From: Prevotellaceae bacterium
GTDB taxonomy: Bacteria; Bacteroidota; Bacteroidia; Bacteroidales; UBA932
Direction of reading: 5' to 3'
DNA: 32,127 bases
NCBI GenBank assembly: GCA_031257315.1
Contig: JAIROW010000022.1
Coordinates: forward strand, 1 to 32,127
Shown here piece after piece: positions 1-4,224 of the stretch (the stretch's first letter is position 1; every line of letters starts with the position of its first letter). The notes beneath the pieces were generated by a model. The model was given only the letters and a program-made list of their open reading frames with translations. It was not told the origin of the DNA and did not search any database. Made by a program: the position numbers and the translations under genes.

Positions 1-130
1 CAGAAAATATCAAGTTCTGGCTTTCAGCCAGTTATTTGGGCTTATGTTTGTCCGTATGTCAAACGACATACGGTTATGAAAATACTGGCTTTCAGCCAGT
101 ATATACTCAAATAAATTTGCATAAACTCTA
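1..130. repeat. Partial copy of a MITE-like hairpin repeat, cut by the window edge
   Basis: This stretch is nearly identical to 3944-4075, with only a few substitutions and short indels. It contains three perfect hairpins: CTGGCT-TTC-AGCCAG (17-31), CCGTATGTC-AAAC-GACATACGG (52-73) and ACTGGCT-TTC-AGCCAGT (84-100). It ends with the terminal sequence ATAAACTCTA (121-130), the same right end as the complete copy. The left part of the element lies outside the window. It lies just downstream of recR (minus strand). No ORF here looks coding. Confidence 0.8.
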
Positions 131-3672: not shown

Positions 3673-3803
3673 TTAGTTCTAACCTGTGAATAATGGTTCG
3701 GATAGAAAACAGTCAACTAAAAGATTAATTATTTTTATACATATTTAAACGGTAAACGTCCGACATAAATGTTATATAAATAAATTTTACTATACGAATA
3801 TAA

Positions 3804-4075
3804 TAGAGTTAATGTAAAATTAAATATGCTATTGGCAAGCATATATCTGGCTGAAAGCCATAATTTTTATAACCGCCGGTGGTTGACCGGCGGAAGAAAC
3901 AGTGAGACGATAACGCTGCTTGTAAAGGCAGAACCCTGTGTATCAGAAAATATTCAAGTTCTGGCTTTCAGCCAGTTTTTTTGGGATTATGTTTGTCCGT
4001 ATGTCAAACGACATACGGTTATGAAAATACTGGCTGAAAGCCAGTATATACTCAAATAAATTTACATAAACTCTA
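3804..4075. mobile_element. MITE-like element, 272 bp, with terminal inverted repeats and internal hairpins
   Basis: The left end TAGAGTTAATGTAAAATTA matches the reverse complement of the right end, TAGAGTTTATGTAAATTTA, at 17 of 19 positions. Inside are TGGCT-GAA-AGCCA (3848-3860), CCGCCGGT-GGTTG-ACCGGCGG (3873-3893), CTGGCT-TTC-AGCCAG (3961-3975), CCGTATGTC-AAAC-GACATACGG (3997-4018) and ACTGGCT-GAA-AGCCAGT (4029-4045). No transposase is encoded; the 77-aa ORF inside is not convincing. The right half recurs at 1-130 and part of the left half recurs, diverged, at 30012-30073. I see no certain target-site duplication. It could be a non-autonomous transposon or a REP-type extragenic repeat. Confidence 0.6.
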
Positions 4076-4099
4076 ATATAGAGTTTATATAGATTTATT
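4055..4099. repeat. Two repeat ends back to back, forming a long inverted repeat
   Basis: The right end of the 272-bp element (AATAAATTTACATAAACTCTA, cited here only as an arm) is followed after ATA by another end in the opposite direction, beginning TAGAGTTTATATAGATTTAT. The arms match at about 19 of 21 positions. Either a second, degraded element abuts the first, or the element is nested. Confidence 0.55.
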
Positions 4100-4154: not shown

Positions 4155-4182
4155 GTATAAACGCGATTAATCGCGTTTATAC
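4155..4182. repeat. Perfect 28-bp palindrome
   Basis: GTATAAACGCGA and its exact reverse complement TCGCGTTTATAC flank TTAA. A -7-like TATCTTTG at 4141-4148 lies directly upstream, but no TTTG at the right distance was found. It shares the ACGCGA/TCGCGT core with the hairpin at 17774-17801, suggesting one palindromic repeat family in this genome. Confidence 0.7.
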
Positions 4183-4184
4183 TG

Positions 4185-4224
4185 CCTGAAAGGGCGCAAT
4201 CCACGATGTTTGCGTCCTTTCAGG
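4185..4224. repeat. 15-bp stem-loop, intergenic palindromic repeat
   Basis: CCTGAAAGGGCGCAA and TTGCGTCCTTTCAGG pair over 15 positions around a 10-nt loop. The single non-Watson-Crick position is G-T on the plus strand, which would be a G-U pair in a plus-strand RNA. It follows the 28-bp palindrome after two bases. No U-run follows. Confidence 0.65.

Follow-up and report, generated by a model that had tools for sequence, protein, structure and literature searches.

The nearest described analogue with an internal repeat of the element analyzed here is BrickBuilt of P. gingivalis (PMC4596501), an IS5-type MITE filled with a 23-bp minisatellite, which has the ends GAGACCTTTGCA, generates 4-bp duplications (GAAA/AAAA) and occurs in 19 copies. 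Among the Y1 (HUH) transposases, those with the signature Y-x3-Q-x2-HH constitute TnpA-Y1 subclass 1.2, which is described as lacking REPs and, in general, terminal structures of the IS200 type (PMC6006769). In the literature that we searched (papers available without subscription) none reported a REPIN-like cassette within a DDE MITE, or repeats tied to subclass 1.2.

The analyzed window (the whole stretch of 32,127 nucleotides) is an entire contig, C205, of a draft genome designated G000 (3.0 Mb, 281 contigs). With a probability of about 0.8, the repeat located at positions 3804-4075 of this window is a composite, in which a REPIN-like Y1 cassette is nested within a DDE-type MITE and the two have been amplified as one unit. 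The MITE itself is ordinary; the novelty lies in the nesting and in the link between the inner repeat and Y1 genes. The features of the locus are collected in Table 1.

Table 1. Features of the composite element and its surroundings (positions in the window)
Feature	Positions	Strand	Basis or remark
Second copy, right half only	1-129	+	94% identity to element 141-272; ATT flank at 130-132
Left target duplication AAT	3802-3804	.	Same AAT at 4075-4077
Left terminal inverted repeat AGAGTTAATGTAAA	3805-3818	+	Alignment of copies; IS of G019 with the same ends
MITE-body hairpin ATATGC..GCATAT	3824-3844	.	Fold and alignment
Inner REPIN-like cassette: inverted H1-linker-H2 pair with H3/H3' between	3847-4044	+	Inverted arms 3847-3884 / 4007-4044
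Hairpin H1 CTGGCTGAAAGCCA	3847-3860	+	
Conserved linker AATTTTTATAACCG, one-base variant of AATTTTCATAACCG	3862-3875	+	Consensus copies genome-wide
Hairpin H2 CCGCCGGTGGTTGACCGGCGG	3873-3893	+	Fold
Hairpin H3 CTGCTTGTAAAGGCAG	3916-3931	+	Counterpart of CTGCCTGAAAGGCAG in relatives
Hairpin H3' CTGGCTTTCAGCCAG, then T run	3961-3975	-	
Hairpin H2' CCGTATGTCAAACGACATACGG	3997-4018	-	Fold
Inverted linker CGGTTATGAAAAT, i.e. ATTTTCATAACCG on the - strand	4016-4028	-	
Hairpin H1' CTGGCTGAAAGCCAG	4030-4044	-	
Right terminal inverted repeat TTTACATAAACTCT	4061-4074	-	Alignment of copies
Right target duplication AAT	4075-4077	.	Match to 3802-3804; flank survey
Diverged TIR-like end TAGAGTTTATATAGATTTATT	4079-4099	+	90% complementary to 4055-4075; 1 bp past the target duplication

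Ends, target sites and copies of the element

The initial annotation described a 272-bp MITE-like repeat whose ends match at 17 of 19 bases, and this is indeed the agreement between the left end, TAGAGTTAATGTAAAATTA, and the reverse complement of the right end, TAGAGTTTATGTAAATTTA; repeat finding returned a terminal inverted pair of 24 nt at 88%. The termini correspond to AGAGTTWATGTAAA (the ends may also be written AGAGTTTATGTAAA). The boundaries proposed by eye proved nearly exact, but the outermost T and A belong to a 3-bp target duplication, and the element proper therefore spans 3805-4074 (270 bp).

The target duplication, which had been left uncertain, now has support. Junction 3-mers were scored in 37 two-ended elements, with the terminal T/A counted as part of the target: they were identical on both sides in 26 cases, and the AAT/ATT concordance table (14, 1, 6, 12) gave a Fisher p of 0.0009, which makes AWT the most likely duplication, as judged from these flanks. 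The mismatched flanks of the other 11 elements fit recombination or assembly chimeras, although this is unproven. The window copy appears to have been inserted beside an older relative, represented by the diverged end at its right side; the sequence beyond this end resembles another TIR-bearing element (L066).

The view that the repeat is mobile and non-autonomous is borne out by its genomic copies, by the target duplication and by a transposase family with matching ends (see below). BLAST of the element against its own genome revealed more than 40 alignable copies (91-96% identity), a 33-base core was matched 86 times in the 3.0 Mb (reversed control, 0), and an 18-base TIR was found at 201 places (control, 0); the copies have the ends in common, and not only the hairpins, contrary to what the initial annotation named as a refutation. 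Since 27 of the 64 contig ends examined lie inside the element, the real number of copies probably approaches or exceeds 90, and much of the break-up of this assembly is due to the element. The second copy of the right half, noticed previously at positions 1-130, is real, and it is what remains of a complete element truncated where the contig begins, as the window is the whole contig.

Outside this genome, an exact core match was present in GTDB contigs only in the Dysgonomonadaceae (Bacteroidales) MAG Cf509_bin64; the host is itself a member of the Bacteroidales and most likely of this family. The approx. 90 copies of the host contrast with nearly none in 12 genomes of the same genus, all compared genomes being drafts in which repeats are possibly misassembled. 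Copies of the composite are mostly intergenic and genes are avoided: 18 of 20 sites lay outside long ORFs, as against 82% of random positions inside one. The element has no ORF of its own, as had been stated; a 77-aa frame (3826-4059) exists, but the copies bear 1-bp indels that disrupt it, so that it is not maintained, and a coding role was rejected.

No empty site was recovered, the genomes compared including no close strain. The joined flanks of copy L028 gave only gene matches (66-79%), none across the junction, in 41 genomes, and a comparison of joined flanks with DNA of the own genome gave no empty site; at the one site compared for its filled or empty state, the relatives were approx. 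66-70% identical over most of the length. Contig C325 of another MAG (G100) had in common with 846 kb of the own genome only its last 0.8 kb, plus matches to the element. This stretch (G100:C325:85724-86535 versus G000:C270:1-842, 92% identity) runs into a composite element and diverges beyond it, a pattern that either recombination or a misassembly at the repeat could explain. Several copies have one flank in common and the other different. Composites fused head-to-tail, with a similar junction and with the first copy devoid of its right TIR, were seen on three contigs, two of the own genome (C23:288-732 and C46:1-457; L055, L050) and one of the other MAG (G100:C214:1-389).

The probable parent insertion sequence of the shell

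The search for paired element ends covered 61 genomes. In a genome of the same family (G019), an IS of 1001 bp (G019:C190:536-1536) has ends identical to those of the element and is flanked by ATT on both sides. It encodes a 309-aa IS5-like transposase (DDE_Tnp_4, PF13359, E = 6e-20; 71.8 bits with a cut-off of 24.8), and thus provides the transposase with matching ends that the initial annotation had proposed to look for. Its best NCBIfam match, IS5_4, is below the cut-off (62 versus 140 bits), which indicates a divergent member of the IS5 family of DDE transposases; its place in the ISL2-like subgroup is a tentative assignment from traits typical of ISL2/IS1031.

Homologues are present across the genus. 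Two contigs of the own genome, C271 and C150, break off within an IS of the same family, with a TIR, TAGAGTTTATATAAATTAG, that differs by one base and adjoins a transposase C-terminus of 75% identity; the outside flanks of these contigs differ, and the genome must therefore contain at least two copies of the IS. Decayed fragments of the family lie on C15, C90, C123 and C222. An intact member of the family was not recovered from the own genome, and no ends were found by a TIR search around the homologue in G003.

Because its ends and AWT duplication match this IS, and because relatives of the IS occur in the own genome, the shell can be classified, on the sequence evidence, as an IS5/ISL2-type MITE. 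It has the following attributes of a MITE: it is short and multi-copy, possesses TIRs, is flanked by a target duplication, lacks a transposase gene and has an autonomous IS with matching ends. Broken pieces of an IS630-type (DDE_3) transposase, unrelated to the ends of the element, were also noted (C173:3540-3839 and C195:1433-1678).

The inner cassette and Y1 transposase genes

The internal hairpins, which the initial annotation took for an unusual trait of a MITE, are real, but they rather form a separate REP/REPIN-like cassette that is not part of an ordinary MITE. The cassette consists of two hairpin-ATTTTCATAACCG-hairpin units in inverted orientation. Exact copies of the 14-mer AATTTTCATAACCG number 303 in the own genome, 38 in G010, 30 in G013 and 9 in G032 (reversed control, 0 in each), and many of them are paired in inverted orientation at distances of 130-175 bp, with the arrangement H1-linker-H2-H3...H3'-H2'-linker'-H1'. 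Among the distinct units of the own genome, hairpins adjoin the linker in 117/168 (H2) and 121/168 (H1) cases, compared with 1-2% in shuffles. The arms of these hairpins have many different sequences, which means that the palindrome is kept while its letters change. The H2 loop occurs in a few discrete forms across copies (CGT, AAC, GGT or ACC before TGACC), which suggests exchange or gene conversion between copies.

The relatives share positions 45-90 and 145-225 of the element without its ends, and inner units devoid of the outer ends are present in G010, G013 and G032; G013 has 30 units and no TIR match. From this distribution, the five hairpins are read as a second element nested in the shell. 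The units are short, palindromic, numerous and arranged in inverted pairs, as REPs and REPINs are, but the GTAG/GTGG tetranucleotide is absent from the foot of the hairpin, where the linker is ATTTTCATAACCG (read by eye), and for this reason we call the cassette REP-like and not REP.

The interior also varies between copies. One shell of 107 bp (L062) has another filling, forms of 89 bp (L063, L129; diverged in L026, L071 and L298) are poor in cargo and carry a CTGGCTGAAAGCCAG-like palindrome, and tandem-module forms reach 338 and 496 bp, which indicates an interior that can be exchanged and that tends to slip. The 89-bp forms may be precursors of the composite or may have arisen from it by deletion. 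The palindromic repeat GTAGAGACGCGATTAATCGCGTCTCTAC and its variants are scattered in the genome (L062:294-400, the flanks of L021 and L013, approx. 4160-4185 of the window), and a palindrome of this type also lies inside the 107-bp element with the same TIRs.

In G032 and G013, which belong to two genera, a Y1_Tnp gene is bracketed on both sides by inverted units, and both genomes thus hold the cognate, bracketed Y1 gene that characterizes REP/REPIN systems; the two genes are 84% identical. The Y1 proteins of loci L166 and L169 contain YIKNQKEHH, i.e. the Y-x3-Q-x2-HH signature of subclass 1.2, with variants in L168, L172 and L174. Next to the Y1 gene in L169, a unit still carries the 3'-terminal part of that gene (by eye), as expected of an internal-deletion derivative.

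Inverted repeats of at least 15 bp, a cut-off chosen after the values had been seen, bracket 9 of 10 Y1 genes in five related genomes, and repeats of at least 14 bp occurred at 0.9% and 0.2% of control places. The flanks of the sole exception, L172, bear units by eye, though these do not make up an inverted pair within the windows tested. Other lineages have units of their own; L168 and L172, for example, carry hairpin-AATATGAATAACC-hairpin, whereas in L174 the sequence between the hairpins is TATTAACC.

A cognate Y1 gene was not found in the window's genome, an absence that is weak in a MAG. Its sole Y1 fragment (contig C128, L130) has no copy of the cassette linker within 1.5 kb and was ruled out as the partner of the cassette, since it belongs to another repeat family, GCTCGGTAGAAA. 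Another Y1 lineage (L164, L165 and L173, in G013, G061 and G010) has different brackets, e.g. a hairpin GCATTCCGTTAGGAATGC followed by TCGCTCGGTAGAAA; a repeat similar to this type adjoins the C128 fragment, and an array of AAAAGGGTTAACCCTTTTGCCC-like repeats lies nearby (L130, approx. 760-960).

Probable origin of the composite and its relation to known systems

A plain MITE that evolved its hairpins by itself, so that the inner repeats would be no separate element, is an unlikely source of these structures. Main-class copies (approx. 270 bp) do all have both shell and filling, and the CTGGCTGAAAGCCAG-like palindrome persists even in the 89-bp forms; however, in several genera the filling stands alone, with no shell around it, and it brackets Y1 genes, shells exist with another filling (the 107-bp L062) or almost none, and the inner units of the TIR-less G013 largely refute the idea. 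We give slightly less credence to a MITE of the Tc1/mariner/IS630 type with a TA target duplication. The ends begin TA..TA and DDE_3 fragments are present in the genome, but these lack matching ends in the flanks searched, the duplication is of 3 bp (AAT with AAT, ATT with ATT), and the matching ends belong to the DDE_Tnp_4 IS. Neither a duplication of TA only nor an IS630 transposase with the same ends was found.

It is equally improbable that the repeat is a structured RNA or a regulatory element (terminator or attenuator) that has been conserved and dispersed, and is kept for a function of the host. The hairpins form a very stable structure (DNA fold of -57.1 kcal/mol versus -23.7 +/- 3.3 for shuffled sequences, z = -10), the palindromes are kept despite sequence differences between the arms of units, a T run follows H3', and copies are mostly intergenic. 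Against this, Y1 recognition sites are likewise expected to be palindromic, the window has no Rfam match except a tRNA, and target duplications, TIRs and a lineage-specific burst fit a mobile element. Sites of the attC type were also considered and set aside, as the linker misfits their core-site consensus.

In the preferred reading, a MITE with a nested Y1-derived cassette, the shell (3805-3846 and 4045-4074) would have taken its ends from a Bacteroidales IS of the IS5 superfamily (DDE_Tnp_4, 3-bp AWT, ISL2-like), whose transposase, as both the ends and the duplicated target suggest, would move the composite in trans by DDE cut-and-paste. The filling may derive from a Y1-mobilised element, its units resembling non-autonomous derivatives of a Y1 gene, and was perhaps captured at the central CTGGCTGAAAGCCAG palindrome, or else left that palindrome. 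As no cognate Y1 gene was found here, the cassette now probably spreads as a passenger of the MITE. The composite would then have been amplified to approx. 90 copies, mostly between genes, and recombination between the repeated 15-bp palindromes could have produced the tandem, deleted and fused variants; the order of assembly is one that we infer. A REP-like repeat may in this way survive the loss of its transposase, having entered the carrier of a different one.

The chances seem to us about even for a broader proposal, that Bacteroidales Y1 enzymes of subclass 1.2 drive a distinct REP-like system with lineage-specific hairpin-linker-hairpin arrays (several linkers end in TAACC), the enzyme having been lost here and the arrays hitchhiking in a MITE of a DDE transposase. 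If this is true, a single unit could be moved by two unrelated chemistries. A repeat partner would also be indicated for a Y1 group listed as having none, and its role becomes testable.

The parent IS resembles ISL2/IS1031-type members of the IS5 family in its DDE_Tnp_4 transposase of approx. 309 aa, its length of 1.0 kb and its 3-bp ANT duplication, and it departs from them in its score below the IS5_4 cut-off. The composite is, like BrickBuilt, a Bacteroidales MITE with IS5-type TIRs, no transposase and an internal repeat array, but its ends and duplication are different, its filling is an inverted hairpin cassette, and it is present in approx. 90 copies versus 19. With REPINs/BIMEs and the TnpA-REP (RAYT) REPtrons (PMC6006769), the cassette shares inverted hairpin pairs, tens to hundreds of mostly intergenic copies and a Y1 gene bracketed in relatives; unlike them, it has no GTAG/GTGG tag, contains the linker ATTTTCATAACCG in a unit of two or three hairpins, is associated with a subclass 1.2 Y1 and resides in a DDE MITE. 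The Y1 proteins agree with TnpA-Y1 subclass 1.2 (Quentin et al. 2018, PMC6006769) in the YIKNQKEHH signature and in their Bacteroidota hosts, but, in contrast to the subclass as published, 9 of the 10 genes are bracketed by inverted repeats.
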